From NCBI GenBank assembly GCA_903847205.1, contig CAINDA010000062.1:1-64000 (forward strand): a DNA stretch of 64,000 nucleotides, read 5' to 3'. Below, one piece after another: positions 4,793 to 59,171 of the stretch. The stretch is from an uncultured Bacteroidota bacterium. Lineage in GTDB: Bacteria; Bacteroidota; Bacteroidia; 2-12-FULL-35-15. A program made the translations under genes and the position numbers. The notes beneath the pieces were generated by a model, which was given only the letters and a program-made list of their open reading frames with translations, was not told the DNA's origin and made no database searches. How positions within the stretch are numbered: the stretch's first letter is position 1; the number at the start of each line of letters is the position of its first letter.

Positions 4793-4804
4793 GAAATTAA
4801 AAAT

Positions 4805-25429: not shown

Positions 25430-27709
25430 ATGAAAAAAATTATTTACACCTTATTATTTGGAGCGGCAATTAATGTTTCGGCATTTGCCCAGGCCATACT
25501 TCCCACTTCATGGGATTTTTCAACAACTCAGACTCCCGGGCCTTATCCTGCAGGCTGGACTCCTTCCGGTACAGCATTTTATACCACATCCGGCAACCCC
25601 GGCATTGCCTGCAAATTTGCAGTTACCGGTAATACACTTGTAATAAATTTCACAACGCCTCCGGGAAATTTAACATATGATATTAAAGCAAACACTGCCA
25701 ACTCAGCGGCCTATACAAGTGTGTTTTTAGTTGAAGAATCTGCAAACGGCACATCATGGACAACCCTTCATTCGCATACAGCGCTTTCTATCACGGCTTT
25801 CACTTCCTTTACTGATACGCCTTTAAGCACCAGCCGTTATATCCGTTTTAATTTATCGGTTAAGGCAAGCGGTAACATCGCTTTAGATAATGTTGCAATA
25901 GCAGCAGCTGCTGCAGGCCCAGCACAGCAGATAAACGTTAAACAGGGTTCCGCTGTTGTACTTACAGGAGGTATTTTCAGCGTAAGTTCTCCGGTGGGAA
26001 CAATGACTCCCACAACATTTACAATTCAAAATGTTGGGACTGTAAATGCATTAAACATTTCTGCAGCAGCGCTTACAGGTGCTGCTGCCGGCGATTTTTC
26101 AGTAACTACTGCCACACCATTTTCAGTCGCATCAAACAGCAGTTCCAGCCTTATAGTCGATTTTACCCCTTCTGCAATAGGTACACGCAATGCTGTTTTA
26201 ACTATTACTAATGATGATCCTAACAATGGTTCTTTTATTATTAATTTGAATGGTATTGGAGGCAGCTATGCAACAGAGCCGACCGCCCAAGCCACAAGCA
26301 TGACTTTCACTGCAATAAAATCTTACACTGTTACCGGCCATTTTACAGGCACTTCCCCTTCTCCTGACGGATACCTTGTTTTAAGAAAAACAGGATCAGC
26401 AATATCCGATGTGCCCGCCGACGGTACTATTTACGGCGCTGGTGATGTAATCGGAACTTCAAAAGTTGTTTACAGTTCAACAGCCTCAGCTTTTTACCTG
26501 AAAGAAGTGATTGCAAACACTTCTTATTATTTTGCGGTGTTTGCATATAATGGAACAGGCATCTACCGTAATTATTTAACTGCTGCTCCCTTAACGGGGA
26601 ATGTTACCAGCGCGGGTTCTATGCAGCCCGCAGGTTATTATACAGGTGTTTCTTCAGCGGCCAGTACATTTGTTACTGACCTGCACAATAAGATTAATCC
26701 TCATACCATACAATTCTACAGCAGCTACGGGCCTTTGATGGTTTCTGCTTTTTATGCGCGTGATACTGCCGCCGGCCAGCGTGTTTTAACATGTGTTTAC
26801 AGCGGCGAAAATAAAGTTTATACAGAACCGTTTGACTGGACAAACGTCGGCTACAGCCGCGAACACACATTCTGCCACAGCTGGATGCCGACTACCAATG
26901 ACCCTGCATTTCAAAACCGTCCGGAATATAACGATTATCACATGCTTACTCCTACTAATCAAAACCAGGTAAATGCACCACGCAGCAATAATCCTTTAGG
27001 AGAAGTTGTAGGCACGCCTATTTCGACGTATCTGGGCGACAAAATAGGTTTGGATGCCAATGGCAACAAAGTATTTGAGCCCCGCGATTCCGACAAAGGA
27101 GATGCTGCACGCTGCATGTTATATCAGTGTATCTGTTATACAGGCGTTGCTTACACAGGACCCGTAAACACTGATGCAACTTACGGCGGAAGCTGGTCGC
27201 TGCCAAGCAGAATCAGCAATGCAATACCTTACGGACAAGATCAAAATGTTTTGAAAAAATGGAATTACCAAGACCCTCCTGATAATTTTGAAATTGCACG
27301 TAACGATTATGTCGATTCGCTTCAGGGAAACAGAAACCCATTCATTGACAGCGCTCAGTTTATCTGCTATATCGATTTTACTACTATGACAAAAATTGCA
27401 GGCCCTCATCTTCCATGCAATACAGAGGTTTTAGGAGTAACAGAAAATCCAAAAAACAACAACGCATTTATGCTTTCTCCTAATCCCAATAATGGAAATT
27501 TTGTTTTGAATTATACAAGTTCAAAAGAAGAAAAAGTAAGCCTGAAACTAGTTGATATTGCAGGACGTACAGTTTACAGCAGCGAACTGCTTATGAACAG
27601 CGGTTCTCACCCAATTGAATTGAGTATGCCGAATCTGAGCAAAGGTGTTTATATTTTTGAATTAACTAGTCCGAAAATGAAACAGACACAAAAAATGGTA
27701 ATTGAATAA
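25430..27709 (+). CDS. T9SS-secreted endonuclease I family nuclease
   Basis: A 759-residue secreted protein with signal peptide MKKIIYTLLFGAAINVSAFA. Residues ~25-155 form a beta-sandwich domain. Residues ~165-280 are an ASH-like choice-of-anchor D domain (FTIQNVGTVNALNISAAALT, GTRNAVLTITNDDPNNGSF). About 290-390 is an Fn3-like domain. The endonuclease I (EndA/NucM) domain spans ~400-660, with its His-metal core YSREHTFCHSWMP (REH motif) and the DYHMLTPTNQNQVNAPRSN block. The last ~75 residues (LSPNPNNGNFVL to KMVIE) are a T9SS type A sorting domain. Secreted DNA/RNA degradation for nutrient phosphate or biofilm DNA is the likely role. Monocistronic, with its own promoter and terminator. Confidence 0.9.
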   Translation: MKKIIYTLLFGAAINVSAFAQAILPTSWDFSTTQTPGPYPAGWTPSGTAFYTTSGNPGIACKFAVTGNTLVINFTTPPGNLTYDIKANTANSAAYTSVFLVEESANGTSWTTLHSHTALSITAFTSFTDTPLSTSRYIRFNLSVKASGNIALDNVAIAAAAAGPAQQINVKQGSAVVLTGGIFSVSSPVGTMTPTTFTIQNVGTVNALNISAAALTGAAAGDFSVTTATPFSVASNSSSSLIVDFTPSAIGTRNAVLTITNDDPNNGSFIINLNGIGGSYATEPTAQATSMTFTAIKSYTVTGHFTGTSPSPDGYLVLRKTGSAISDVPADGTIYGAGDVIGTSKVVYSSTASAFYLKEVIANTSYYFAVFAYNGTGIYRNYLTAAPLTGNVTSAGSMQPAGYYTGVSSAASTFVTDLHNKINPHTIQFYSSYGPLMVSAFYARDTAAGQRVLTCVYSGENKVYTEPFDWTNVGYSREHTFCHSWMPTTNDPAFQNRPEYNDYHMLTPTNQNQVNAPRSNNPLGEVVGTPISTYLGDKIGLDANGNKVFEPRDSDKGDAARCMLYQCICYTGVAYTGPVNTDATYGGSWSLPSRISNAIPYGQDQNVLKKWNYQDPPDNFEIARNDYVDSLQGNRNPFIDSAQFICYIDFTTMTKIAGPHLPCNTEVLGVTENPKNNNAFMLSPNPNNGNFVLNYTSSKEEKVSLKLVDIAGRTVYSSELLMNSGSHPIELSMPNLSKGVYIFELTSPKMKQTQKMVIE

Positions 27710-43296: not shown

Positions 43297-44322
43297 TTAA
43301 GAATTGTTTCCCGGTTTTTTCTTTTCCACCGAAACTTTTTTCTTTTCTTCCTGAGATCCTTTATTAAGTGCTTCAATAACGTTTCTCGCAATTTTTTCAA
43401 TTACAGGAACAGTAACTGAATTACCAGCCTGCTTATAAAGCTGGGAAGCACCCATGTTTTCAGGTAGTTTATATTTTTTAGGGTAACCTTGAAATAAAAA
43501 ACATTCGCGCGGTGTTAATTTTCGAATACCGAAGTCGGTTAAAATTAACGGAACATTATGTCCGCCTGTTCCCATATTGGCAGTTAATGTAGGACATACA
43601 TCGCTTTTGTTTTCGCGAACATAATGTCTGCGCCATTGATAAATTGTGTCTTTCCTAGTGATGGTTTTTAAAAGTTCGGAATACATGTATTTATCTTTTT
43701 TATAATAAAATCTTTCTTCTTCTTCCTCCTTGCTTATTATGTCTTTAACTGATTTGGTAAGCTTAACCGCAGGAGGAAATTTAAAATGATCAGCGTATTT
43801 ATTAGTGCCGTCTTCTTCATTTCTGAAGCAGACAATATAAACCCTTTCCCTATTCTGCGGAATATTACCGAAGTCTTTAGAGTTCAAAACAGCTGATTGA
43901 AAAGAGTAGCCGTTAGCTGCCATCGCTTCTTTAATAATCCTGAATGTTTTACCCTGATCATGTCCGTAAAGATTTTTTACGTTTTCAAGAAAAACAGCCT
44001 TTGGTTTATTCAAGGCATTAATGAATTCAATAATTCTAAAAAAATGATTTCCTCTTTGGTCATTAAATCCCTTCCTGTAACCCGCTACAGAAAAAGGCTG
44101 ACACGGAAAACCTCCTGCCAGAATATCTACTTTTTCGAGAAGCAGAGGATCGAGTTTCCAGATATCTTCTTCGTGAAGAGGGTGTTTAAAATTTAACCTG
44201 TAAGTAATACAGGCATTTTTATCGTATTCATTTGCCCATGCTAATTCTGCTCCTGAATTGATGAAGCCCTGGCATATCCCGCCGACACCCGCATATAAAC
44301 TGCCTACTTTATACATTTTCAT
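43297..44322 (-). CDS. dcm: DNA (cytosine-5) methyltransferase
   Basis: A 341-residue C5 methyltransferase. Conserved motifs in order: I, GSLYAGVGGICQGF (7-20); IV, GGFPCQPFSVAGYRKGF with catalytic C74; VI, FLENVKNLYG with E113; VIII, NIPQNRERVYIVCF; IX-X, LTPRECFLFQGYP and QAGNSVTVPVIEKIA. The target-recognition domain (about 175-265) is of ordinary size. Its sequence specificity cannot be read. No restriction endonuclease or vsr is adjacent; the DUF3883 nuclease and vsr fragment are 27 kb away. It therefore looks like a solitary methylase or the remains of a split restriction system. The extreme C-terminus is Lys/Glu-rich. Confidence 0.93.
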   Translation of the reverse strand: MKMYKVGSLYAGVGGICQGFINSGAELAWANEYDKNACITYRLNFKHPLHEEDIWKLDPLLLEKVDILAGGFPCQPFSVAGYRKGFNDQRGNHFFRIIEFINALNKPKAVFLENVKNLYGHDQGKTFRIIKEAMAANGYSFQSAVLNSKDFGNIPQNRERVYIVCFRNEEDGTNKYADHFKFPPAVKLTKSVKDIISKEEEEERFYYKKDKYMYSELLKTITRKDTIYQWRRHYVRENKSDVCPTLTANMGTGGHNVPLILTDFGIRKLTPRECFLFQGYPKKYKLPENMGASQLYKQAGNSVTVPVIEKIARNVIEALNKGSQEEKKKVSVEKKKPGNNS

Positions 44323-44589: not shown

Positions 44590-45489
44590 TTATTTAACGA
44601 CATTAAATTTACCAGTTGTAAGAATTTTATTTTTCTTATCACGTATTTCGTATAAATAAAAGCCTTCCGCAAATTGGCTTGTATTTATATCTGTTTTATC
44701 ATTCTGAATTTTATAACCTCCCGCCGGCTTACCAGAAGCATCAACCACTTGAATGTTATCCGCTTCCTTAATTTTTGCAGAAATAGTTACAGACTCCTTT
44801 GCTGGATTTGGAAACACTTTTACCTTTTCTTCAAAATTATTATGTTCGTCAACACCTACCCATCCTGTTAATGCTACATCATCAATATATAATGTGCTGC
44901 CAACCCGTGCGTTCGCTTTTTTTAAACTGGAGGCGAAAGTAATTACAAGGGTATCTGGTAAGACTGTTGAATAGTAAAAGAGGTTAACCTGAAAAAAAGT
45001 ATATGTCATCGTTGTATCAATAACAAGATAACCGTCAGCAATGGTATCTGTATTTGTTCCATTCCATTTTTGCAGAACAACCGTTGCCCCGCCAACATCA
45101 GCTCCAACAGGAATATATTTAGCCCAGAACTCTAACTTTTCGGGACGCCCGGTATATGGTGTTCCCATCTTTGTTGAAGGAGGGGAAACATTTATTTTTC
45201 CTAAAAAAGCATAACCCATAGTGTCCCATAATAAATTGGGGACAGGATTGTTACTAAAAAAAATCGTTTTTATTTTTAACGCATAATTACCAGAATGTTT
45301 ATCTATGCCAGTTGCTTTAAACGCTGAAACAGGATTAGAAATCGTTGAGGCTATATTTAAAGTTTCCCAGTAATCAGGGTTTTCATAAGTATTCTGTGAA
45401 GTCCAGTTTTCAAACCCTCCGTTGGACTGAGCCCTTGAGCCCAAAACTACCCAAATAAAAAACGCGGATAATATTACGGACTTTTTCAT
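44590..45489 (-). CDS. Secreted PCMD-like protein with T9SS type A tail
   Basis: A 299-residue secreted protein (signal peptide ending GSRAQ at ~20). The body (~22-215) opens with NGGFENWTSQNTYENPDYWE, has RPEKLEFWAKYIPVGADVGG and ends GSTLYIDDVALTG. This is the jelly-roll arrangement of the putative carbohydrate-metabolism domain PCMD, common in Bacteroidota surface proteins. The last ~75 residues (VKVFPNPAKESVTISA to TTGKFNVVK) are a T9SS type A sorting domain. Carbohydrate binding is likely, catalysis not evident. It stands alone with 457 bp upstream. Confidence 0.82.
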   Translation of the reverse strand: MKKSVILSAFFIWVVLGSRAQSNGGFENWTSQNTYENPDYWETLNIASTISNPVSAFKATGIDKHSGNYALKIKTIFFSNNPVPNLLWDTMGYAFLGKINVSPPSTKMGTPYTGRPEKLEFWAKYIPVGADVGGATVVLQKWNGTNTDTIADGYLVIDTTMTYTFFQVNLFYYSTVLPDTLVITFASSLKKANARVGSTLYIDDVALTGWVGVDEHNNFEEKVKVFPNPAKESVTISAKIKEADNIQVVDASGKPAGGYKIQNDKTDINTSQFAEGFYLYEIRDKKNKILTTGKFNVVK

Positions 45490-45946: not shown

Positions 45947-48781
45947 TCACTTCACCACAATAATTTTAGTATAACGGCTGCTGCCTGAAAGGCCTGTAAT
46001 CATATACATTCCAGGCTTAATATTATACTCTGAAAAAGAAATTGAAAAACTTTCTTCATTTAACAATACCTCTTTTGATGCAATTTCCCTGCCCATCATA
46101 TCATATACTTTTATCACCAAATTTTTATTTTCTGTATTGGTAAGACGGCCGTATAGAACGGCACCGTCAAAGGGATTTGGGAAAATTTCAAATTTCGCTT
46201 TGTCAACAGCATCAGGGTTAGAAACCGGCGGTACAATCAAACTTCTTTGCTGTCCGCCCTCAAAAGTATTCGCCTGAGCAGATGATGAAAAAGTAAGTTT
46301 AGCATTCGGGCGGTAATAGCTTTGAGTGCCCGCAGTTTGACTGCAAACATCGCCATTGCTGATATTTGCTCTGTAGTATAATGCCATGTAATCAGAATAA
46401 CTATTTGCAAGTACCGATGAATTTGCAGAAAAACTGCTGTTGTTCCAGCAGATAGTAATTAGCAGGTTGCTGGTTCCGTCGTAAACAAACGAGGTATTGA
46501 AGTTGAAGGAATTCCATCCAGTTGTTGTTGTATAAGTTCCCGAATAAACCGTAACAGCATTTGCTCCTGCTAAAAATGAAGTACCCGCAAATGAAGCAGC
46601 TGCCGTATGTGCGATTGTGATTGTGAAATTTCCAAGAGGCTGAGATGTTGCTGCACTCGAAACATTGAAAGCAATTGAATTTAAATAGGATGAAGAAGAG
46701 CTCCAGCCGGAAGCAGCCAGTTCGGATTTTTTCATAATGTATGATGCACGTTCATCTGAATTTGCAGAGCCGAAAGGATGCGCCGAATAAGGGCTTGCAG
46801 CCGTTCCTATTGTCAAAGTTGAACTTGTTGATGCAGCAGCAGATGTTGTGAAAGATACTGCTGATGAATAGCTTCCCGCTGATGAGCAGACTGCCTGCAC
46901 TTCAAACTGGTACACAGTTGCTGCACTTAAACCGCTGATGGACATTGATGCTGATGTGGCTGTAACAATTGTCCACGCTGATGAAGACGAAGGCTTATAC
47001 TGCACATTATAACTGCCGGCTCCTGAAACTGCTGTCCAGCTTAATACAGCGCTGCCGGATGTTATTGAACCTGCACTAAGCCCCGACGGCGTTCCGCAGA
47101 ATGATACGGCAGCTAATGTTGTGAATGATACTGCAGAAGAATAGGCGCCTGCGACTGAGCAGACTGCCTGCACCTGAAACTGATAAACAGAAGATGCATT
47201 TAAACCGCTTATTGATTTTGATGGAGTGCTTGATGCAACAGTTGTCCATGTTGAGGAAGACGAAAGTTTGTATTCCACATTATAACTTGCTGCACCGGGA
47301 ATAGCTGTCCAGCTAAGCAAAGCGCTGTTATCGCTGATTGAACCCGCTGTGAGTCCGGATGGTGTTCCGCATGATGCCGGTGCCCCGCAAACAGTCATAT
47401 TACCGATTGTATAATAATGAGAAATAATCCATGAAAAATTTTGTCCGCTCTGCGACCAGCGCTGTGTACCCCATTGGCACATACCGCGTCCATGGCCAAA
47501 CCGGGCTTTGCCGCAGCATACATTGTCAGAAAAACAAGGATAACCGCTTCCTGTACCGCTAAAGCAGTTGCCGCAGGAAACACCGCTTGCGGCACCCTGC
47601 CCGTTGTTTTCCGATGAAAATTCGGCTCTTGCCGGATTGATACCGTCTGAGGTAAGCACCATCCCAGCGGTCGCAAGCGCAGCAGCCTGACAGTTGGCAT
47701 ATACATTAGCCCCCCAAACCTGGTTGCAGGTGGTAGATGCAATATCGAAATTGGGTTTTACAGGATGGTTTACGTACCAGGCACCGTATGTTCTATAGGC
47801 TACCGAGCCGGCCGAGATGGAGTTTGACTGCCAGCTTGAAATCCATTCGTTGTCAATCCCCGTTTCAGTATAATGCTGTAAACTCATAACACTGACTCCC
47901 GAACAATTAGTGCACGAACAGCCGGTTCCAACACGGATAGTTGTTGGAACAATGCATCCTGAAGCTGTGCTTACAGAATTATTACTTTTATTTTGTGCAT
48001 TATTATTGCTTTCGGGAATATTTTTTTCGTATAAATCCACATCCTCCTGTGTACCATCCAAAACATGCTGAAGGTATTTTTCTGTTTTCTGCCCCTCCCC
48101 TTTTTCCAGTGTAATATTCATAGAAATTTTTGTCGGAGAAAGAAGAAGGTTGTTTACTTTATAAGAACGATAACCCGGTGAAGAAAAGGTGAACGATTTT
48201 CTGACCGGTAAATCCTCAGTAGAATTTATTACTGAATATTCTGAAGAAAAAACAGAAAAGTGTCCCTTTTCATCAGACTTCGTTTTGTCATCTGAGCCCA
48301 TTGAAACAGTAACGCCTTTCATTGGTTTTCCTGAATCAGAATCAATTATATATCCCTCTACCAAAGCACCGGAAAGATTCAAATCCCGTATTGGTGTTCT
48401 GTTAATTCTATCCATATTAACCTCCGCATTTACTGTATTACCTTTTTCAATGAAAAAATAAGTATTTAACGGTAAATGTCCGGCCGCTGAAAAAGTAACA
48501 TCGTAACGGCCTTCACTGTTGATGAATAAAATATGGCCGCTTTCATCTGACTGAACTAAAATGCTTTTCCCTTTACTGCTGATTTGTATTTCTGATTTTA
48601 TTCCATATCCATTTTCGGCATCACGCATAAAAAAAGAAAGGGTTCCGGAATTTTCAGATGCTGCCTCTTCGATGTATTCTGAGCTGGCAGCATGCGGTAT
48701 ATTCTGTGCGGTAATTGACGTCGAAACTATGCTTAGTGCAGTAAACGCTGGAAGAATGAATGACAAACTAAATTTTTTCAT
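45947..48781 (-). CDS. Secreted SpoIID-like peptidoglycan hydrolase, Fn3 x2, T9SS type A
   Basis: A 944-residue secreted protein (signal peptide ending TAQ at ~26). There are two CarboxypepD-type regulatory beta domains (~45-115, ~140-215). A SpoIID domain (~275-480) carries GIDNEWISSW (the Glu matching the SpoIID catalytic position), AGSVAYRTYG, ASTTCNQVWGANVY and GHGRGMCQWGTQRW. Two Fn3 domains (~488-655), the shared 170-residue module (~663-830) and a type A sorting tail (~868-944, FEIFPNPFDGAVLYG to KIIVVK) follow. SpoIID proteins are lytic transglycosylases acting on stem-peptide-free glycan. Here the domain is Cys-rich, suiting an extracellular site. It is the last gene of a five-gene same-strand block. 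Confidence 0.86.
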   Translation of the reverse strand: MKKFSLSFILPAFTALSIVSTSITAQNIPHAASSEYIEEAASENSGTLSFFMRDAENGYGIKSEIQISSKGKSILVQSDESGHILFINSEGRYDVTFSAAGHLPLNTYFFIEKGNTVNAEVNMDRINRTPIRDLNLSGALVEGYIIDSDSGKPMKGVTVSMGSDDKTKSDEKGHFSVFSSEYSVINSTEDLPVRKSFTFSSPGYRSYKVNNLLLSPTKISMNITLEKGEGQKTEKYLQHVLDGTQEDVDLYEKNIPESNNNAQNKSNNSVSTASGCIVPTTIRVGTGCSCTNCSGVSVMSLQHYTETGIDNEWISSWQSNSISAGSVAYRTYGAWYVNHPVKPNFDIASTTCNQVWGANVYANCQAAALATAGMVLTSDGINPARAEFSSENNGQGAASGVSCGNCFSGTGSGYPCFSDNVCCGKARFGHGRGMCQWGTQRWSQSGQNFSWIISHYYTIGNMTVCGAPASCGTPSGLTAGSISDNSALLSWTAIPGAASYNVEYKLSSSSTWTTVASSTPSKSISGLNASSVYQFQVQAVCSVAGAYSSAVSFTTLAAVSFCGTPSGLSAGSITSGSAVLSWTAVSGAGSYNVQYKPSSSSAWTIVTATSASMSISGLSAATVYQFEVQAVCSSAGSYSSAVSFTTSAAASTSSTLTIGTAASPYSAHPFGSANSDERASYIMKKSELAASGWSSSSSYLNSIAFNVSSAATSQPLGNFTITIAHTAAASFAGTSFLAGANAVTVYSGTYTTTTGWNSFNFNTSFVYDGTSNLLITICWNNSSFSANSSVLANSYSDYMALYYRANISNGDVCSQTAGTQSYYRPNAKLTFSSSAQANTFEGGQQRSLIVPPVSNPDAVDKAKFEIFPNPFDGAVLYGRLTNTENKNLVIKVYDMMGREIASKEVLLNEESFSISFSEYNIKPGMYMITGLSGSSRYTKIIVVK

Positions 48782-48935
48782 TTTATTATTATAATTAAAT
48801 TACCATGCTTTCTGATTTATTTTCCATCCGAATTAATTTTTCAATCCTGGGTTCCCAATAGTCTATTCTTCTAAATTCTTTAGATTCAGGAATTACAATA
48901 ATGCAGGAAGTAGTCGCGAAGGATGTATTGGTTTC

Positions 48936-51137
48936 TTACTTTACAACTATCTTTTTTGTGAAAAGATTTGTACTTGTCATTCCGGCAAGTGTGTAGATGC
49001 CAGGTTTCAGAAGCTCGTCAGAAAATATTAAAGAAAAATTTCCGGACTCTGCAAAAATTTCTTTTTCAAAAACTTCCCTTCCAAGCAGATCATAAATATG
49101 TATAGCTATTTGTTTGTCTAATTGGCCGCTGAATTTTCCATACAACACATTTCCATCAATAGGGTTTGGATAAACGTCCAATGTCTCTTTGCTAAATTGA
49201 GATAAAGGGCTTGCTGTTTCTTGATCAGGAACCTGGAAACTTCTTTCTTGTCCCCCATTAAAAGTGTTTGCTTGCGCTGAAGAAGAGAAAGCAAGTTTAG
49301 CATTCGGGCGGTAATAGCTTTGAGTGCCGGAAGTTTGACTGCACACATCCCCGTTGCTTATGTTTGCTCTGTAGTATAATGCCATGTAATCAGAATAGCT
49401 GTTTGCCAGTACCGATGAGTTTGCAGAAAAACTGCTGTTGTTCCAGCAGATAGTAATTAACAAGTTGCTCGTTCCGTCATAAGCAAACGGGGTATTGAAG
49501 TTGAAGGTATTCCATCCTGTTGTTGTGGTATAAGTTCCTGAATAAACCGTAACAGCATTTGCTCCCGTTAAAAACGAAGTGCCCGCAAATGAAGCGGCTG
49601 AAGTGTGTGCAATAGTGATGGTAAAGCTTCCGAGCGGCTGAGATGAAGCAGCGCTTGAAACATTAAATGCAATTGATTTTAAATAAGTCGAAGAGGAAGA
49701 CCACCCGGATGAAACCATTTCAGATTTTTTTATAATGTACTCTGCACGTTCATCAGAATTTGCAGAACCGAAAGGATGCGCAGAATATGGAGAAGTCGCT
49801 GTTCCAATGGTAAGTGTAGTGTTTGTTGAGATTGAAGCCGATGTTGTGAAAGAAGCTGCGGAAGAGAACAAGCCTGAAATTGAGCATACCGCTTGAACTT
49901 GAAACTGGTAAGTTGTAGAAGCACTTAAACCGCTTATTGATGTTGAAGCCGAACTTGAGGTAATAGTTGTCCAGACAGAAGATGATGCCTGTTTATATTG
50001 TATGTTATAGCTGTTCGCTCCTGAAACGGCGTTCCAGTTTAAAACTGCACTGCCTGATGTTACAGAACCTGCTGTCAGCCCCGAAGGCACACCGCATGAT
50101 GAAGTTCCTGCCGAAGTTGTGAATGATCCCAGTGAAGAATAAGAACCGGTAACAGAGCAGACGGCTTGCACTTGAAACTGATAAACAGAAGATGCATTTA
50201 AACCGCTTATTGATTTAGACGCCGAAGTTGATGTAACGGTGGTCCATGTTGAGGAAGAAGAAAGTTTGTATTCAACGTTATAACTTGTAGAACCAGAAAC
50301 CACTGACCAGCTAAGCAAAGCACTGCTTTGAGTAATCGAACCTGCTGACAAAGCAGATGGCGTACCGCAAGAAGACGAAGGACTGATGCAGGAAGTAATA
50401 CCTGTGCCCCCGACTGTATTGATTTGAGCGGTACCGATAGAATTTATCTGTGAAATAGTTGGAATAGTACCTTGTCCTAAACCTGAATTCGGGAAAACGA
50501 TATAATCTATAACACCTTGCGATGTACCGCCAGTCCTGGCATTCGAATTGATGCCTAATTGATTGGCAAGATAAATTGAACCTTCTCCTAAAGAACCTGC
50601 TGGGCCTCCGTCAGCAAAAACAGCATAACAGCCCTGCCCGTTCAAAGTATTATACACATAGCCGATATCACCAAGATGAATGCTTCCTAATGATGTCACT
50701 GCTGAAGGCAGAACAAAAAAAGGAATAGCTTCTGAATTAACATAATGTGAAGGGCTGGTGGATGGATATGCACTATTAGTTAATGATGTCGTGGAAACGT
50801 ACATTCCCGGATAAGGTCCGCTGGAGCCCTGAATAATGGGATTACCGCTGTTGTTTGTAACTACTCCCCACCAGTTGCCTGGATGACCTCCATTAGCGGT
50901 ATAATCTAATCCGCTGTTATTAGGGCCGTAGGCGCGGGGGCTTCCATCAGCGTCAATATACATTTTAGCTTTGAACAATATTGCCCCTGAAGGATTATGT
51001 TTATAAACATTAAAAGTTTCGATAGTGGTTTTTAGTGTTAAATCGCAATTGACAGAGCTCTGAGCTTTAACAGAAACGCCATTAAAAATGGTGCCTGCTG
51101 CCATTAACAGTAATAAATAATTGTAAAAATTTTTCAT
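48936..51137 (-). CDS. Secreted GH75 chitosanase-like enzyme, Fn3 x2, T9SS type A
   Basis: A 733-residue secreted protein (signal peptide ending VKAQ at ~25). The catalytic head (~28-245) fits the GH75 chitosanase pattern: AKMYIDADGSPRAYGP, SGLDYTANGGHPGNWWGVVT, EAIPFFVLPSAV, YAVFADGGPAGSLGEGSIYL and IDYIVFPNSGLG. The D-G-G-P...G-E-G-S segment holds the catalytic acids. GH75 cleaves beta-1,4 glucosamine polymers. De-acetylated peptidoglycan glycan is a possible alternative substrate. Then two Fn3 domains (~258-430), the shared module (~440-610, nearly identical to that of the SpoIID protein) and a type A sorting tail (~650-733). Confidence 0.82.
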   Translation of the reverse strand: MKNFYNYLLLLMAAGTIFNGVSVKAQSSVNCDLTLKTTIETFNVYKHNPSGAILFKAKMYIDADGSPRAYGPNNSGLDYTANGGHPGNWWGVVTNNSGNPIIQGSSGPYPGMYVSTTSLTNSAYPSTSPSHYVNSEAIPFFVLPSAVTSLGSIHLGDIGYVYNTLNGQGCYAVFADGGPAGSLGEGSIYLANQLGINSNARTGGTSQGVIDYIVFPNSGLGQGTIPTISQINSIGTAQINTVGGTGITSCISPSSSCGTPSALSAGSITQSSALLSWSVVSGSTSYNVEYKLSSSSTWTTVTSTSASKSISGLNASSVYQFQVQAVCSVTGSYSSLGSFTTSAGTSSCGVPSGLTAGSVTSGSAVLNWNAVSGANSYNIQYKQASSSVWTTITSSSASTSISGLSASTTYQFQVQAVCSISGLFSSAASFTTSASISTNTTLTIGTATSPYSAHPFGSANSDERAEYIIKKSEMVSSGWSSSSTYLKSIAFNVSSAASSQPLGSFTITIAHTSAASFAGTSFLTGANAVTVYSGTYTTTTGWNTFNFNTPFAYDGTSNLLITICWNNSSFSANSSVLANSYSDYMALYYRANISNGDVCSQTSGTQSYYRPNAKLAFSSSAQANTFNGGQERSFQVPDQETASPLSQFSKETLDVYPNPIDGNVLYGKFSGQLDKQIAIHIYDLLGREVFEKEIFAESGNFSLIFSDELLKPGIYTLAGMTSTNLFTKKIVVK

Positions 51138-51257
51138 AATATTTTAACTAAATGTGATTCTTTGTTTTGTCTTTTACCTGATGCGAAGCTTTGAGATTTT
51201 ATTTTTTTTCCGATTCGGCTCTCTCGCTGCTGCTTAATAAAGAAGTCTCCAAAACTT

Positions 51258-53399
51258 CTATTTCTTAACCACTATCCTCTTTGTAAAGCGCTTACTGTCG
51301 CTGATGCCGACAAACAGGTAAATCCCTGATTTAAGATTCTCATCAGCAAAAGAAAGTGAAAACTCACCTCCCTCAACAACTATTTCTTTTGAAAAAACTG
51401 CTCTTCCAAGCATATCATAAATTGCTGCAGTCATTTTTTTATCACCCGCATCAGCGAATCGGCCGAATAAAGCAGTGCCGTCTAAAGGATTCGGGAAAAC
51501 TTCGAAATCATTTTGGTTTGCAGCATTCAAATCAGAAGGTGCCGGAACAACAAGGCTTCTTTGCTGTCCCCCTTCAAATGTGCTCATTGAAGCTGATGAA
51601 GAAAAAACAAGTTTCGCATTGGGACGGTAATAGCTTTGTGTGCCTGTGGTCTGGCTGCACACACCGCCGCTGCTAATATTTGCCCTGTAGTATAACCCGA
51701 CATAATTACTATAACTGTTTGCCAGCACGGCCGAATTTGCAGAAAAACTGCTGTTATCCCAGCAGATGGTAATTAGCAGGTTACTTGTTCCGTCATAAGC
51801 AAAAGGTGTCCCGAAGTTGAATGTATTCCAACCCGCTGCAGCAGTAAATATTCCTGAATAAACAATTGCTGCATCCGCACCTGTTAAAAAGGATGAACTT
51901 GTAAATGATGCGGCTGATGTATGAGCAATTGTGATGCTGAAGTTTCCAAGAGGCTGGGCTGTTGCAGCATTTGAAACATTAAAAGCAATTGACTTCAGAA
52001 AGGATGCTGAAGAACTCCAGCCCGAAGCTGTCAGCTCGGCTTTTGTTATAATATATTCCGAGCGCTCATCTGAATTTGCTGAGCCGAAAGGGTGTGCCGA
52101 ATAAGCGGAAGACGCTGTTCCAATTGTAATTGTTGAACCTGTTGATGTTGCAGCTAAGGTTGTAAACGATGCTGCTGAAGAATATACACCTGTTGAGGAA
52201 CAGACTGCCTGTATTTGAAACTGGTAAGAAGTGGATGCGCTCAACCCGCTGATAGATTGTGTTACAGTTGTTGATGAAATAGTTATCCACGTGGATGAAG
52301 TTGATGGTTTGTACTGCACATTATAACTTACAGCTCCTGAAACTGCTGTCCAGCTAAGCATTGCACTGCTTGAAGTAATGGAGCTGGATGATAGTCCCGC
52401 AGGAATCCCGCAAGGAGTCGAAGATGGCAATGTTGTAAATGATACAGCGGAAGAATAAGAGCCAGCAGATGAGCATACTGCCTGTACCTGAAATTGATAA
52501 GATGTTGATGGGCTTAAACCGCTTATAGACTGCGATGTAGCGGTTGCTGTAACAGTTGTCCATGTTGATGAAGACGAAGGTTTATACTGCACATTATAAC
52601 TTACAGCGCCGGAAATTACGCTCCAGTTTAATACTACACTGCTTGATGTTACTGAACTTGCAGTAAGTGATGACGGCGTTCCGCAGGAAGCAGTGTTTGT
52701 AACATTCACATATTTTCTTGGAGTATAGGATGAAAGCTGACTTGCAGTATACGTATGGTAAGCAACATGCCAGCCGTTAGCCGATGATTCAATAACACGG
52801 TAATTTCCGTTTGCATAATTTGTTTCAACCAGCCTGACATGAGATCCGGCATGATTAAAAATATCACCAGGCTGAACGAGTGATGCACTGCTCAATGCAG
52901 TTGATATATTAGGCAGTGATGAGGTACTTTCTTTTGAAGCCCTCCCCCATGTTCTTGAAACAAAACCTGAGCAGTCTACCCCTAAAGCACAGCTTTCTGA
53001 GGCATCGCCTCCTGTTGTACAGTCATCATCACCTGCGGATTTTCCGTTAGTAAGCCCGGTTGTAAATGATGCAAGAGTTGAAAAACCTCCCCAGCAATAT
53101 GGCATCGAAGTATTACTGCCAGTTGTTACCCAGCTGGGTGTTATTATATTTCCTACACCAGAACAGGAAACACCGTGCTTAATATTGCTTGAAGCTGCCG
53201 TAAACGTATAAGTAGTATAGGGCACGGCATTGCTTATTATCTGTGTTCTTGAAATTGACTGCCCAACTCCCCTGTATGAGCATAAAACAAATAACATAAA
53301 AGCCGACAGAATAATTAAAGATTTAAGATTTAAGCTTTTGTGTGACACCCCCTTATTTCTTAACCTTGATTCTTGAAATGTTGTAAAAAATTTTTTCAT
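51258..53399 (-). CDS. Secreted NlpC/P60-like peptidase, Fn3 x2, T9SS type A
   Basis: A 713-residue secreted protein with a long N-terminal extension before the signal core (LIILSAFMLFVLCSYRGVG, ~28-46). The true start may be an internal residue near 1-20. The catalytic head (~60-230) shows the NlpC/P60 arrangement. The nucleophile Cys is in ALGVDCSGFVSRTWG, and the His is in DIFNHAGSHVRLVETN, followed by an ESSANGWHV strand. Such enzymes cut D-Glu-mDAP type bonds in peptidoglycan stems. Two Fn3 domains (~240-412), the shared module (~420-595) and a type A tail (~630-713, DFEVFPNPLDGTALFG to RIVVKK) follow. It starts 26 bp after the propeller protein's stop, in one operon. Confidence 0.84.
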   Translation of the reverse strand: MKKFFTTFQESRLRNKGVSHKSLNLKSLIILSAFMLFVLCSYRGVGQSISRTQIISNAVPYTTYTFTAASSNIKHGVSCSGVGNIITPSWVTTGSNTSMPYCWGGFSTLASFTTGLTNGKSAGDDDCTTGGDASESCALGVDCSGFVSRTWGRASKESTSSLPNISTALSSASLVQPGDIFNHAGSHVRLVETNYANGNYRVIESSANGWHVAYHTYTASQLSSYTPRKYVNVTNTASCGTPSSLTASSVTSSSVVLNWSVISGAVSYNVQYKPSSSSTWTTVTATATSQSISGLSPSTSYQFQVQAVCSSAGSYSSAVSFTTLPSSTPCGIPAGLSSSSITSSSAMLSWTAVSGAVSYNVQYKPSTSSTWITISSTTVTQSISGLSASTSYQFQIQAVCSSTGVYSSAASFTTLAATSTGSTITIGTASSAYSAHPFGSANSDERSEYIITKAELTASGWSSSASFLKSIAFNVSNAATAQPLGNFSITIAHTSAASFTSSSFLTGADAAIVYSGIFTAAAGWNTFNFGTPFAYDGTSNLLITICWDNSSFSANSAVLANSYSNYVGLYYRANISSGGVCSQTTGTQSYYRPNAKLVFSSSASMSTFEGGQQRSLVVPAPSDLNAANQNDFEVFPNPLDGTALFGRFADAGDKKMTAAIYDMLGRAVFSKEIVVEGGEFSLSFADENLKSGIYLFVGISDSKRFTKRIVVKK

Positions 53400-53425
53400 C
53401 TTTTTAGATTTTAATACTTTGGAAA

Positions 53426-54427
53426 TTATTTTGTTTCAGCTTGAATAAGGTGGTCATTGAAATGATATTTTACTGCTGTTAATAATGCTGGATAACCTGC
53501 TTTCTTCGCCTTATTAGTTTCTGTCAGAGAAAAAACAAAAACACCCTGCGGTGACGTTACCATATTTAAAATACTGTTATCAGCCGAAACATGAAAATCA
53601 TTATTGGAAAGCACATAATAACAATCCGGAACTTTAATGCTGTTAACAATGTTTCCCAAGCCGCCTGCATGTAATTCTACAGCAATAATATTCCTTTCAA
53701 CGCTGATAGGGCTTTCAGAAATATAAGTTTGAACATCCAAAAAAACACGGCTGTCAGTCGCTCCAGTAACATATACTCCTGCAATTGTTTTTTCTGAGTT
53801 CAATGTTTTTTCATAAACCTTACCGCCGGCCGTAATTACCTTAATTGAATAAGAATTATCTCCCGTAAGTTTTGTTATCACAAAATTACCTGATGCAGTA
53901 ATCCAGCCTTCAGATTCCCTGGATAATTCAATATTCAGGCTGTTTCCAGAAGGAAGTAATAGGTAAGTTGCATTGTTAAAACGTGTAATCCTTTCAACAC
54001 CGAGATAGGAATTTGGAAAAGTCAATTTCTTAACAAATGCTCCGGATTCACTATAAACATTAACAAACTGCTCATCCAAAACATAGAAAAAACCTTTATC
54101 ATAAACAAAATCCTGAGGAGAGAATGAAACCGGAAATTTTTTTACAACTTTTCCGCTTGCTTTATCAGTTATCAAAATTTCATTTGAAGCGTTAGACAAA
54201 AAAGCAATTTTGTTTTCAGAGATAACCTCAAAAGATACTGCTCCAAGGTTAACTCCCGGCAATTTAGAATAAGGAAGCCCATTCTGTTCGTTCCATTTAG
54301 TCATTGAAATCTCTTTGACATTCCAACCGGCGGACTGTCCCTGTCTGCTTTGCGCGTTAACAGTTACTGAAGCTATTCCTGCAGCTGCGATCATTAAAAG
54401 GAACAAATATTTTTTTTTCGTTTTCAT
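53426..54427 (-). CDS. Secreted propeller-like protein of unknown function
   Basis: A 333-residue protein with a signal peptide (YLFLLMIAAAGIASVTVNAQ, ~7-26). The mature part shows repeated beta-blade-like strands with a ~45-residue period, for example FEVISENKIAFLSNASNEIL, DFVYDKGFFYVLDEQFVNVY and RITRFNNATYLLLPSGNSL. This suggests a six-bladed NHL-like propeller. It has no Fn3, no shared module and no T9SS tail, unlike its neighbours. Lying between the amidase and NlpC/P60 genes with 26-34 bp gaps, it is co-transcribed with them and is probably periplasmic. It could be an immunity-type inhibitor, a regulator or a chaperone; this is speculation from position. Confidence 0.65.
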   Translation of the reverse strand: MKTKKKYLFLLMIAAAGIASVTVNAQSRQGQSAGWNVKEISMTKWNEQNGLPYSKLPGVNLGAVSFEVISENKIAFLSNASNEILITDKASGKVVKKFPVSFSPQDFVYDKGFFYVLDEQFVNVYSESGAFVKKLTFPNSYLGVERITRFNNATYLLLPSGNSLNIELSRESEGWITASGNFVITKLTGDNSYSIKVITAGGKVYEKTLNSEKTIAGVYVTGATDSRVFLDVQTYISESPISVERNIIAVELHAGGLGNIVNSIKVPDCYYVLSNNDFHVSADNSILNMVTSPQGVFVFSLTETNKAKKAGYPALLTAVKYHFNDHLIQAETK

Positions 54428-54461
54428 TATTAAAATATTTTGAAGGTTATAATTTTGTTTG

Positions 54462-57173
54462 TTAATTTTTGGAAATCTCCTTCACAACAACCCTCTTCGT
54501 AAAACGATTACCGTCGGTTGTTCCAACAAAAAGGTAAACTCCCGATTTAAGATTTCCTTCTCCCAATGAAAGAGAAAAACTTCCCCCTTCAACAGCGATT
54601 TCCTTTGCAAACACTTGCCTCCCCAGCAAATCATAAATCTGTATTGTCATTTGTTTATTAGCGACGTCTGAAAACTTTCCATTCAATAAGTTTCCATCAA
54701 ATGGATTCGGAAATACAGTAAACTCCGGCTGGCTTCCATTTGCAGTTGAGGAGGATGAAGGATCTATTAAACTTCTTTGCTGCCCGTTGCCGCCATCAAA
54801 CGTTTCAATTGAAGAGGATGAAGAAAAAGCAAGTTTTGCATTTGGCCTGTAATAGCTCTGGGTACCTGTGACTTGGCTGCATACCCCGCCGTTTGTAACA
54901 TTTGCCCGGTAGTACAATGCCATAAAATCAGCATAACTATTTGCAAACACGGATGAGTTTGCAGAAAAACTGCTGTTGTTCCAGCAGATGGTAATTAGCA
55001 GGTTGCTTGTTCCGTTATAAGCAAACGGCGTATTAAAGTTGAACGTATTCCATCCTGATGTTGTTGTATATGTTCCTGAATAAACAACAGAAGCATCTGT
55101 GCCTGTTAAAAATGAAGTGCCGGCAAATAATGCCGCTGAAGTATGAGCAATAGTGATAGTGAAATTTCCAAGAGGCTGCGCAGTTGCTGCATTTGAAACA
55201 TTAAATGCAATTGATTTCAAATAAGGAGAAGAGGAACTCCAACCGGAAGCGGCCAGCTCTGAATTTTTTATAATGTATTCAACCCGTTCATCTGAATTTG
55301 ATGAACCGAAAGGATGCGCCGAATAAGGTGTTGTTGCTGTTCCAATAGTCACTGTTGAGCTTGTTGATGAAGGAGCCGATGTTGTAAATGCTGCTACTGA
55401 AGAATAAGGCCCTGCAGATGAGCACACAGCCTGAACTTGAAACTGGTAAGCAGTAGATGCACTTAAACCACTGATTGATTGTGACACGGCCGTTGTTGTA
55501 GCCGTTGTCCACGAAGAAGAAGATAATGACTTATATTGCACATTATAACTGAGTGCGCCTGAAACTACAGACCAGCTTAATACAGCGCTGTTTGAAGTAA
55601 TGGAACCTGAAGACAAACCAGCAGGAGTGCCGCAACCTGATGAAGATGCAGTTGTTGTAAATGAAGCTGCTGAAGAATATGAACCGGTTGATGAGCATAC
55701 AGCCTGAACCTGAAACTGGTATATTGTGGATGCAGTTAAACCGCTTAAAGATTGAGACAGAGCGGTTGAAGTAACAGTTGTCCAAGAGGACGATGTCGAA
55801 GGCTTGTATTGAATGTTATAGCTTGCTGCACCTGAAACTGCACTCCAGCTCAAAACTGCACTGTTTGATGTAACTGAGCCGGCAGTAAGCCCTGAGGGCG
55901 TTCCGCATGAAGAGCTTGTATTATTAATCAAGTTATAATAAGTCTGCCAGTTCCAATGAGGCCCCGGATCATCGTGTGTTTGATTCGGATAGTGCTGATG
56001 CCCTTTAATTTTATAAATCGAAGACAAAACACAGCTTCCGCTGCAGGATACTCCGCTCCAGCATGTTGTTGGGTTAATCCCATAACCGCTGTTACAGATG
56101 TCCTTCACTAAATTTGCTGAACTTTGGTACAATGCCGGTGTATACCATCCAGTCTGTGCCTGGTAGCCTTCGTGTTCAATACCGATTGTATAACCGTTTT
56201 CGCTGCCTACGTGCCATGCTTTTTTTGATTCCAAAACCATCTGGGTAATTTGTCCGTCAGATGAACGAACTACATAATGCGCTGAAACAGCAGCACTGCA
56301 ATTCTGAAACCAGGAAATGCAGCCAGCATAACTTCCTTCTACATCATGGATAACAACTGCTGTAACAGCAGCGGTGCGGGAGCTGTAGTTGCAGGATGCT
56401 GCAGGATTCCAAATAGCTGATGCGTAATCCGCTGATTGAACTGAAGGCGGTATTCCCCCTCCCATAGATTTGTATGTATTACCATTTGAATCAGTGATTT
56501 TTTCGTCAGATACCGTTACCTGTGCTGAACTTAATACTTTATAATTATCTTCTCCGAAATAAGAAGGAAGATCAAAATTGTAAGCAGGGAAATTATATTT
56601 TGCTTGAAATTCCGCGTTGTTAAGAAAAGTGAAGTATGAATATAGCTGTGTATTAAGAGCAAATGTCTGTCCAGCATCCTGGTGAGGAAGTTCGCTGAGG
56701 GCAGTAAATGTGCCGGCAATAATATCAATATCTTTTGCACTTAATGATTTTTGTGTCGCAGATATGGTCATTACAGCATTATACGCCTTCGCAAATGCCA
56801 GAATGTTTTTTTTAGGATCATTTATGATTAAATTTGCTGATACGCCAGAAAGGTTTGAAACATAAGCCAGATTATTATTAAAATAATTTTTGCCATCCAA
56901 TACAAGCCCCATTACTCCGTAAGCTTTAGGAAGCCCCATACAGCTTTCTGCATCGCCTGGATTGTGTGTAAGATGATAAAGATGAGTATTGGTATATGAA
57001 ACCGCTTCAAGCACACCGCGGGGAATATCTGGATTCGACTGATACGCCTCTTCGAAAAAAGCGGTGTAATCTGGACCTGCCGAAAAATTTCGGTTTGAAT
57101 GCTGCATCATTTGCAGCTGCTGGGAGAATGCAATTACAGGGACTGCCGCTAATAGTAAGAGTATTTTTTTCAT
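54462..57173 (-). CDS. Secreted Amidase_2 peptidoglycan amidase, Fn3 x2, T9SS type A
   Basis: A 903-residue secreted protein (signal peptide ending AFSQ at ~18). An N-terminal helical domain (~25-215) contains EEAYQSNPDIPRGVLEAVSY and MGLPKAYGVMGLV, like a glucosaminidase/transglycosylase-type accessory. The Amidase_2 domain (~265-425) follows: TAVVIHDVEGSY (zinc His), NGYTIGIEHEGYQ (Glu) and IKGHQHYPNQTHDDPGPHW (zinc His and Asp). It removes stem peptides from MurNAc. Two Fn3 domains (~432-605), the shared module (~615-790) and a type A tail (~820-903) follow. First gene of the lytic block, with a promoter at 57267-57299. Confidence 0.87.
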   Translation of the reverse strand: MKKILLLLAAVPVIAFSQQLQMMQHSNRNFSAGPDYTAFFEEAYQSNPDIPRGVLEAVSYTNTHLYHLTHNPGDAESCMGLPKAYGVMGLVLDGKNYFNNNLAYVSNLSGVSANLIINDPKKNILAFAKAYNAVMTISATQKSLSAKDIDIIAGTFTALSELPHQDAGQTFALNTQLYSYFTFLNNAEFQAKYNFPAYNFDLPSYFGEDNYKVLSSAQVTVSDEKITDSNGNTYKSMGGGIPPSVQSADYASAIWNPAASCNYSSRTAAVTAVVIHDVEGSYAGCISWFQNCSAAVSAHYVVRSSDGQITQMVLESKKAWHVGSENGYTIGIEHEGYQAQTGWYTPALYQSSANLVKDICNSGYGINPTTCWSGVSCSGSCVLSSIYKIKGHQHYPNQTHDDPGPHWNWQTYYNLINNTSSSCGTPSGLTAGSVTSNSAVLSWSAVSGAASYNIQYKPSTSSSWTTVTSTALSQSLSGLTASTIYQFQVQAVCSSTGSYSSAASFTTTASSSGCGTPAGLSSGSITSNSAVLSWSVVSGALSYNVQYKSLSSSSWTTATTTAVSQSISGLSASTAYQFQVQAVCSSAGPYSSVAAFTTSAPSSTSSTVTIGTATTPYSAHPFGSSNSDERVEYIIKNSELAASGWSSSSPYLKSIAFNVSNAATAQPLGNFTITIAHTSAALFAGTSFLTGTDASVVYSGTYTTTSGWNTFNFNTPFAYNGTSNLLITICWNNSSFSANSSVFANSYADFMALYYRANVTNGGVCSQVTGTQSYYRPNAKLAFSSSSSIETFDGGNGQQRSLIDPSSSSTANGSQPEFTVFPNPFDGNLLNGKFSDVANKQMTIQIYDLLGRQVFAKEIAVEGGSFSLSLGEGNLKSGVYLFVGTTDGNRFTKRVVVKEISKN

Positions 57174-57560: not shown

Positions 57561-59171
57561 ATGAAGCCTTCCGATACACTGTTTGAGCTTATAAAATCGC
57601 TGAGTCCATCAGAAAAAAGGCACTTTAAACTTTATGCTCAAAGGCATATTGTAGGAGAGGAAAATAATTATTTAAAGTTATTTGAAACGATAGATAAACA
57701 GGAAGAATACGAAGAAGAGGCTTTGAAAAAAAAGTTTCGCCACGAAAAATTTATTCAGCAGCTTCATGTTGCTAAAAATTATCTTTATACACTTATTCTA
57801 AAAGCCCTAAATGAATTCCACACGGCCGATTCTGCCAACATACAGCTGAGAGAACAGCTTAACAGCGCAGAAATACTTTTCGGAAAAGGACTCTATAAAC
57901 AGGCTTCAAAAATTTTGATCAAACTGAAAGAGCAGTCCTATAAATATGAAAAGCAGGTTTATATTTTAGAGGTAATTCTGTTAGAGAATAAAATTGCCTT
58001 TGCCCTGCAGGATATGGAAGTTGCCAAACAAGTTATAACCCAGAGTGCAAGAGAAGAAGAACAGCTGCTAAGTGATTACCAGGAAGCAAGGCGGTATAAA
58101 CATTTGTCCGACAGGCTCAAAATTTTTATTACAACAAGGGGCACCGCAAGAAGAGCCGAGGACACCCGCGAATTAGAAAGCATTATAGAGCATCCGCTTT
58201 TAAACAATGAACAAAAGGCGATTTCGTTCAGCACCAAATATTCTTTTTTTAATGTTTATTGTAAATATTTCACAATACAGGAAGACTATAAACATGCATA
58301 TCCATACAGCAGTAAGCTGGTTCTTTTAATCGAATCTCACCCGGAACGTATTCAGAAAAAACCGCAGTCCTACCTGCTGGCCCTGAATAATCTCCTTGCA
58401 ATATTGAAAGAACTCCGGAAATTTGATGAGTTTGAAATTGCTTTACAAAAACTGAAATCAATTCAATGCAAAACTGTACACTTTCAATCCAGAGCTTTTT
58501 CTTATATTTTTATACACGAATGGAATTTTTCTTTTTATACCGGCGGGTATCAAAAATGCCTCGCCCTTATTCCATTTCTGGAGAAAGGATTGCAGCAATA
58601 TGATAAGCAGATTACTCGCGATTTAAAACTCCTGTTTTATTTTAATGTATTTTATGTGCATTTTGTTCTTGATCAGTTTCAGCATGCAGCTAAATGGCTG
58701 AACAAGATATTAAATGATAAACGTACAGAGGTCCGCCAGGATATTCGCAATTTCGCAACTGTCACCAATATTATCCTTCATTATGAAACGAAAGATTATG
58801 ATTTATTGGAGTATCTTATCCGCTCAACCCAGCGGCTTCTTGAAAAAGAAAAAGACTCACATGAATTTGAACTTTTAGTTCTTACACATATTAAACAGCT
58901 TATAAAAAAAGATTCCGCTGAGGAAAAGCGAAAGATATTTATTAAACTGCGCAACAAATTACTTTTTGCAAATCTCGAAAACTACCTGATAGCTTTCTCG
59001 AGAGGCTCTTCTGAAAAAATTATATTAAATTCATTTGATATTCTGGCCTGGCTCGAAAGCAAAATTGAGGATCGGTCTTTTGCTTCTGTGTTATCTGAAA
59101 AAGAAAAAGACAAACAAGCCAAAGTTCATCCTGCTTTGAGTTATAAAAAGAAACAAGAAAAGAATAAATAA
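57561..59171 (+). CDS. Cytosolic all-helical repeat protein, unknown
   Basis: A 536-residue protein with no signal peptide or TM. It starts MKPSDTLFELIKSLSPSEKR, a beginning found in a broad Bacteroidota family of uncharacterised proteins. The whole sequence is helical, with TPR-like pairs (LNSAEILFGKGLYKQASKIL, LALNNLLAILKELRKFDEFE, LLFYFNVFYVHFVLDQFQHA) and a Lys-rich C-terminus. A solenoid scaffold for protein contacts is the reasonable reading. The next gene, siaC, lies 95 bp on and may or may not be co-transcribed. Confidence 0.7.
   Translation: MKPSDTLFELIKSLSPSEKRHFKLYAQRHIVGEENNYLKLFETIDKQEEYEEEALKKKFRHEKFIQQLHVAKNYLYTLILKALNEFHTADSANIQLREQLNSAEILFGKGLYKQASKILIKLKEQSYKYEKQVYILEVILLENKIAFALQDMEVAKQVITQSAREEEQLLSDYQEARRYKHLSDRLKIFITTRGTARRAEDTRELESIIEHPLLNNEQKAISFSTKYSFFNVYCKYFTIQEDYKHAYPYSSKLVLLIESHPERIQKKPQSYLLALNNLLAILKELRKFDEFEIALQKLKSIQCKTVHFQSRAFSYIFIHEWNFSFYTGGYQKCLALIPFLEKGLQQYDKQITRDLKLLFYFNVFYVHFVLDQFQHAAKWLNKILNDKRTEVRQDIRNFATVTNIILHYETKDYDLLEYLIRSTQRLLEKEKDSHEFELLVLTHIKQLIKKDSAEEKRKIFIKLRNKLLFANLENYLIAFSRGSSEKIILNSFDILAWLESKIEDRSFASVLSEKEKDKQAKVHPALSYKKKQEKNK

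Follow-up and report, generated by a model that had tools for sequence, protein, structure and literature searches.

Four of five consecutive genes in a 64,000-nucleotide stretch of a soil-type Bacteroidota genome (the window) join different wall-degrading enzymes to nearly the same C-terminal carrier. Do they form one concerted system, as a preliminary description of this DNA proposed, and what would such a system serve? We compared the heads and tails of these proteins with profiles, solved structures and relatives' genomes, and asked what the fifth gene contributes.

Five genes and their shared carrier

The preliminary description placed the cluster correctly, in both coordinates and strand, and its claim that four of the five genes encode different wall-type enzymes was borne out, since Amidase_2, NlpC/P60-like (divergent), GH75 and SpoIID-like heads were all found. 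The features are the following.

45947-57173 (-): five-gene cluster, in transcription order amidase, orf4, NlpC/P60-like, GH75, SpoIID-like
54462..57173 (-): amidase gene, 903 aa (signal peptide, N-terminal domain, Amidase_2, Fn3, Fn3, module, T9SS CTD)
56430..57095 (-): AmiN, a domain of ~220 residues, ahead of Amidase_2 in 24/24 homologues
55959..56372 (-): Amidase_2 catalytic domain (profile and residues H276, E333, H392, D402)
55374..55907 (-): Fn3 pair, amidase gene (Pfam and copy comparison)
54819..55373 (-): shared module, amidase gene, 185 residues (copy comparison, module tree)
54465..54719 (-): T9SS type A CTD, amidase gene (profile above cut-off)
53426..54427 (-): orf4, Sec signal (by inspection), no T9SS tail, predicted beta-propeller-like
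51258..53399 (-): NlpC/P60-like gene, 713 aa, shared chassis (profiles for Fn3 and tail)
52704..53255 (-): NlpC/P60-like catalytic head (C143, H187, E204 invariant)
52152..52685 (-): Fn3 pair, NlpC gene (Pfam and copy comparison)
51597..52151 (-): shared module, NlpC gene (copy comparison, module tree)
51261..51503 (-): T9SS type A CTD, NlpC gene (profile above cut-off)
48936..51137 (-): GH75 chitosanase-like gene, 733 aa, shared chassis (phmmer)
50472..50987 (-): GH75 catalytic head (D62, D64, D176, E185 against the acidic residues of V-Csn)
49836..50369 (-): Fn3 pair, GH75 gene (Pfam and copy comparison)
49281..49835 (-): shared module, GH75 gene (copy comparison, module tree)
48939..49178 (-): T9SS type A CTD, GH75 gene (profile above cut-off)
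45947..48781 (-): SpoIID-like gene, 944 aa, shared chassis (profiles)
48248..48361 (-): CarboxypepD_reg-like part of the SpoIID N-terminal region (below the Pfam cut-off)
47408..47899 (-): SpoIID/LytB-like catalytic head (profile; E312 against the catalytic Glu)
46838..47371 (-): Fn3 pair, SpoIID gene (Pfam and copy comparison)
46283..46837 (-): shared module, SpoIID gene (copy comparison, module tree)
45950..46189 (-): T9SS type A CTD, SpoIID gene (profile above cut-off)

The intergenic gaps are short (34, 26, 120 and 154 bp in transcription order; range 26-154) and no terminator-like site was found between the five genes, which makes a single transcript plausible. Four of the proteins end in the same order, two Fn3 domains, a 185-residue module and a type A T9SS CTD, over a shared tail of ~475 residues; both Fn3 domains and the Por_Secre_tail scored above curated cut-offs in all four (Pfam and TIGR04183 profiles). 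Pairwise amino-acid identity among the four copies is 65-75% for Fn3, 76-89% for the module and 41-64% for the CTD. The module had neither a Pfam match nor a credible PDB match, and the Fn3-Fn3-module part may act as a spacer or a binding unit common to the four proteins. The common order had been recognized in the preliminary description, which gave the module ~170 residues and overlooked the amidase's ~220-residue N-terminal domain and the CarboxypepD_reg-like N-terminus of the SpoIID protein. Its claim of type A tails on four enzymes stands, as all four are above cut-off and the genome encodes SprA (SprA_N, 538 bits, E 2e-161), so that such tails are usable. We infer that the four tailed hydrolases, whose Sec signals, like those of the cluster's proteins generally, were assigned by inspection, are exported via T9SS.

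The heads differ in how readily profiles recognize them. Amidase_2 is clear (Pfam, E 7e-26), and the zinc or catalytic residues H276, H392 and D402 together with glutamate E333 are kept in 10/10 amidases aligned. AmiN carries an invariant YGVMGL motif and had no match in Pfam or PDB profiles; a lysozyme/SLT-like motif noticed in it by eye was unsupported, and its fold was not so assigned. The GH75 head was missed by Pfam and was found by phmmer through the solved chitosanase V-Csn (E 5.8e-44). The four family-conserved acidic residues of V-Csn, D34, D36, D148 and E157 (PMC9485262), align with D62, D64, D176 and E185 of the window protein. Among 396 genomes scanned across the class, 15 besides the window's own contain GH75, one of them only as a weak broken fragment; the enzyme is uncommon, yet present in several families. 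A phage origin of this gene was rejected, with no match in phages, PHROGs or viral contigs. The SpoIID head passed PF08486 (30.8 bits against a cut-off of 23, E 5e-7) and matched TIGR02669 at E 7.5e-15, yet under that model's cut-off; its E312, present in 4/4 homologues, aligns with E101 of C. difficile SpoIID, which is catalytic in an enzyme that needs prior amidase action on the glycan (PMC6221140).

The NlpC/P60-like head is divergent. The window head scored below the Pfam cut-off (14.4 bits against 23, E 0.03-0.04), and 13 of the 19 members of its family matched NlpC/P60 weakly (best E 0.001), yet the Cys143-His187 dyad and a third polar residue, E204, are invariant in 19/19. A structure model was too poor (pLDDT 47) to use for a papain-like fold. 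The earlier NlpC/P60 call thus holds for the Cys-His catalytic residues and fails the curated profile cut-off, and we name the head NlpC/P60-like only. Loss of active-site residues on full alignment had been put forward as evidence against a concerted system; they are kept in the amidase, GH75 and SpoIID heads, and the NlpC Cys/His pair is invariant.

Around the cluster, a PCMD-domain protein with a T9SS tail lies directly downstream (44590-45489, minus strand) and has a look-alike near the amidase locus of relative G002 (L077:15246-16001); a C5 cytosine methyltransferase is found nearby (43297-44322, minus strand), and two adjoining PKD-repeat proteins with CHU_C T9SS tails occupy 2294-8386 (minus strand). 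PADLOC gave no defence-system link for the cluster.

Recurrence of the heads and exchange of chassis

The heads were searched in 59 relatives' genomes and the loci were then read. All four heads on one chassis were found in the window genome only, and the full four-enzyme set in no other of the 59 genomes. Sub-sets recur: the amidase adjoins GH75 in three genomes (G002, G020, G022), the order amidase-orf4-NlpC is repeated in G022 (C342), and amidase, M23 and SpoIID heads are consecutive in G002 (C27) on a chassis other than the window's. Outside the window, 7/13 GH75, SpoIID or NlpC loci lie <=10 kb from an amidase, where ~1% each would be expected (P about 4e-10, even using the largest single chance); this is a rough binomial that allows 10 kb to the left and right of every amidase, and the short contigs of draft assemblies push the observed count down. 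Solitary GH75 and SpoIID genes exist too. The idea of a concerted system whose enzyme set would recur across Bacteroidota therefore survives as repeated co-localization of wall-hydrolase heads and not as a fixed set, and the scattering that would speak against it applies to part of the GH75 and SpoIID loci.

The divergent gene that flanks the cluster (57561-59171, plus strand; it starts MKPSDTLFELIKSL and has no Pfam match) is likewise found beside the amidase locus of three relatives, G002, G020 and G023 (L077, L081, L083). Its retention beside the amidase in relatives indicates a syntenic locus that has gained genes. The locus may have grown at an ancestral amidase site, with heads recruited onto the local chassis.

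Two unrelated chassis are used in the genus, I (Fn3, module, CTD; the window type) and II (about 500 residues). They carry, respectively, 6 and 18 amidase heads, 4 and 5 GH75 heads, 1 and 2 SpoIID heads (2 on others) and 1 and 1 NlpC heads (8 on others), all four head types being found on both. The head trees split chassis I from II by a single change (amidase, 100/100; GH75, 98/94), and the window genome itself uses I at the cluster and II for a GH75 (C6) and for an amidase beside GH18 (C41). The four window modules form one clade (98/96), and AU tests reject monophyly both for the modules of GH75 genes (p 2e-4) and for those of amidase genes (p 0.001). By these trees the tails do not follow the heads; tails came to be shared within the locus once the heads had joined it, or as they did so. 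Synonymous divergence of the module is already about 0.75-1.5, which rules out recent gene conversion of the module as a simple account and, together with low dN, points to tail sharing that is not recent and to strong purifying selection on the module. In G002 (C27), three unrelated heads have tails 83-88% identical over 818 residues. What emerges is a mix-and-match kit: wall hydrolases destined for secretion swap export tails and then share one within a locus.

Other arrays were seen along the way. The amidase-GH18 pair on chassis II in the window's own genome (C41, L091:6076-12242) has tails 52-58% identical, and seven other genomes from the genus have such a pair (L124, L126, L129, L130, L131, L135, L137). 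The second GH75 (C6, L090:4419-10452) stands beside a C39-like/Golvesin_C protein whose tail it shares, an arrangement also seen at L084. Tandem C10 proteases with I69 inhibitor prodomains use the module chassis in G002 (L078:5509-10237).

The module is also found on C10 and M43 proteases and on a beta-helix protein, so the chassis is a general T9SS carrier and not specific to lysis. Together with the heads that occur alone, this would suit a locus that merely tolerated duplication of T9SS cargo genes and swapping of their heads, and whose mix is accidental. We consider such an absence of joint function decidedly unlikely, as co-localization of the heads outside the window is far above chance and the consecutive amidase-M23-SpoIID genes of G002 use another chassis.

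orf4 and the NlpC/P60-like enzyme

The fifth gene, left unexplained by the preliminary description, lacks a T9SS tail yet is tied to the NlpC gene. Its product, of the ~330-aa size class, had no match in Pfam, PDB sequences, PHROG or PADLOC. A structure model (pLDDT 83) returned 546 PDB matches at E <= 0.001, mostly beta-propellers among the best matches listed, with TM scores of only 0.33-0.55, and a beta-propeller-like fold is predicted. A scan of 84,980 species' genomes recovered orf4 at nine loci, each in a MAG that bears the name Bacteroidetes bacterium (isolates palsa, nzgw, BWOrg), and the NlpC gene is directly downstream in 9/9; with the window, this split arrangement holds in 10/10 loci. 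More distant Bacteroidota have a single T9SS-tailed protein with a central NlpC domain that begins around residue 290-350, and the N-terminal ~280 residues of these fused proteins match the orf4 profile in 10/10. The reverse profile gave all orf4 proteins 31-46 bits and everything else <=9 bits, while a whole-genome scan of 394 genomes with the orf4 profile returned the own gene, four fusions and one short marginal match. Adjacency at all split loci and fusion in ten others indicate that the two forms are one functional unit, strictly linked and sometimes fused, for which the literature and libraries searched hold no name.

We propose that orf4 is the cognate partner of the NlpC enzyme. It may keep the enzyme inactive in the periplasm or position its substrate. 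Folding of T9SS cargo precedes export and takes place in the periplasm, where gingipains fold as zymogens held by an N-terminal prodomain (PMC10202324); papain-like proteases with linked inhibitors exist in Bacteroides (PMC3462683). A peptidoglycan hydrolase in the periplasm would threaten the cell's own wall. By linkage and precedent, orf4 is perhaps a periplasmic safety catch; an N-terminal or adjoining propeller would suit this role, and substrate positioning equally. The strict linkage, the Sec signal, the missing export tail and the linked inhibitors of Bacteroides (PMC3462683) could also be read as an effector-immunity pair, with orf4 protecting against an antibacterial NlpC toxin. We find this doubtful, since other lineages fuse the orf4-like domain to the enzyme, with predicted co-export, and immunity proteins differ in this respect.

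The cognate partner proposed here has possible counterparts on the other peptidoglycan-type heads examined in the genus, which also carry a non-catalytic partner: AmiN in 24/24, an N-region in 5/5 SpoIID proteins and ~300 residues in M23, next to the adjoining or fused orf4 of NlpC. The GH75 and GH18 heads (glucosamine/chitin) begin shortly after the signal peptide, without an N-terminal partner. This pattern lends weak support to a role in self-protection. It seems unlikely to us that these partners belong to one broad class of safety catches, guarding exported wall hydrolases in the periplasm, and that orf4 is a new propeller-type inhibitor among them; the resemblance of the SpoIID N-region to a carboxypeptidase-regulatory fold argues against an inhibitor role for that region. 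The set nevertheless offers a testable case of how peptidoglycan hydrolases are exported through the cell's own peptidoglycan space without self-harm.

Proposed role and comparison with known systems

It seems fairly probable that the locus encodes T9SS-exported hydrolases that break down microbial wall material outside the cell. After folding in the periplasm, the enzymes would be exported by way of the SprA translocon; the amidase would then strip stem peptides, SpoIID would cut the denuded glycan, the NlpC/P60-like enzyme would trim peptides, and GH75 would cut glucosamine-rich chitin or chitosan. The order amidase first, SpoIID next is established for SpoIIP/SpoIID (PMC6221140). GH75 being a chitosanase family, the substrate range would be wider than peptidoglycan, and a chitosanase alongside the complementary amidase and SpoIID activities suggests that mixed wall material, of bacterial and fungal origin, is degraded. 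Elsewhere in the window, a T9SS-tailed Endonuclease I (25430-27709, plus strand) is a second kind of secreted degradative enzyme, and it fits scavenging of dead cells. Wall degradation and peptidoglycan-fed growth are reported for the Cytophaga-Flavobacterium group (PMC11205867).

The preliminary description left the choice between a bacteriolytic or predatory system and a scavenger. Surface-bound hydrolases that lyse living neighbours on contact would make use of the same complementary peptidoglycan activities, T9SS and Endonuclease I, and predatory Bacteroidota are known (PMC10385382, PMC11205867). A search of the own genome for the T6SS sheath gave no VipB/TssC match (one family searched; a divergent Bacteroidota T6SS could escape it) and so lends no support to ixotrophy-type predation, which uses T6SS together with T9SS. 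An intact outer membrane shields Gram-negative prey from peptidoglycan hydrolases, which counts against such a weapon, and GH75 points to chitosan besides peptidoglycan. Predation is thus possible but unsupported, and in our estimate unlikely. Remodelling or recycling of the cell's own wall, on which amidase and SpoIID cooperate elsewhere in bacteria (PMC6221140), is highly improbable here, as T9SS tails direct proteins outside, no GH75 substrate is known from the cell's own wall and the genes are missing from many relatives. Scavenging of microbial walls is the best reading of the locus.

Several known systems resemble parts of it. The tailed proteins have the layout of T9SS type A cargo (Por_Secre_tail/TIGR04183), with Sec signal, catalytic head, accessory domains and type A CTD, a class that includes cellulases and chitinases (PMC10202324). 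They differ from usual cargo in that four unrelated wall-hydrolase heads ride nearly one ~475-residue tail at one locus and that elsewhere in the genus the same head types ride a different tail. The polymorphic TANFOR/BaCT toxins of Bacteroidota (PMC7073777) are likewise modular and lie in T9SS-rich neighbourhoods, but there the TANFOR trunk is N-terminal and bears variable C-terminal toxins, whereas in the window a C-terminal trunk bears variable N-terminal enzymes and no nuclease toxin is present in the cluster. Among GH75 chitosanases, V-Csn (PMC9485262) is the closest solved, by the E value given above and 4/4 conserved acidic residues; unlike it, the window enzyme, for which chitosan cleavage is predicted only, rides a T9SS chassis beside peptidoglycan hydrolases. 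As in the SpoIIP/SpoIID pair of C. difficile (PMC6221140), an amidase and a SpoIID-like protein are encoded together and the catalytic Glu is aligned, with Amidase_2 in place of SpoIIP, predicted T9SS export and no sporulation context.

The orf4-NlpC unit recalls the linked protease-inhibitor pairs SpeB-Spi, Staphopain-Staphostatin and Bacteroides C10-Bfi/Bti (PMC3462683), each a cysteine hydrolase with a linked partner, and in its fused form the gingipain prodomain zymogens (PMC10202324), where the partner is N-terminal. Unlike in these, orf4 is a ~330-aa beta-propeller-like protein, the enzyme is NlpC/P60-like and inhibition is only proposed. T9SS cargo arrays themselves are already known; what is new here is the orf4-NlpC unit and the exchange of chassis between heads.
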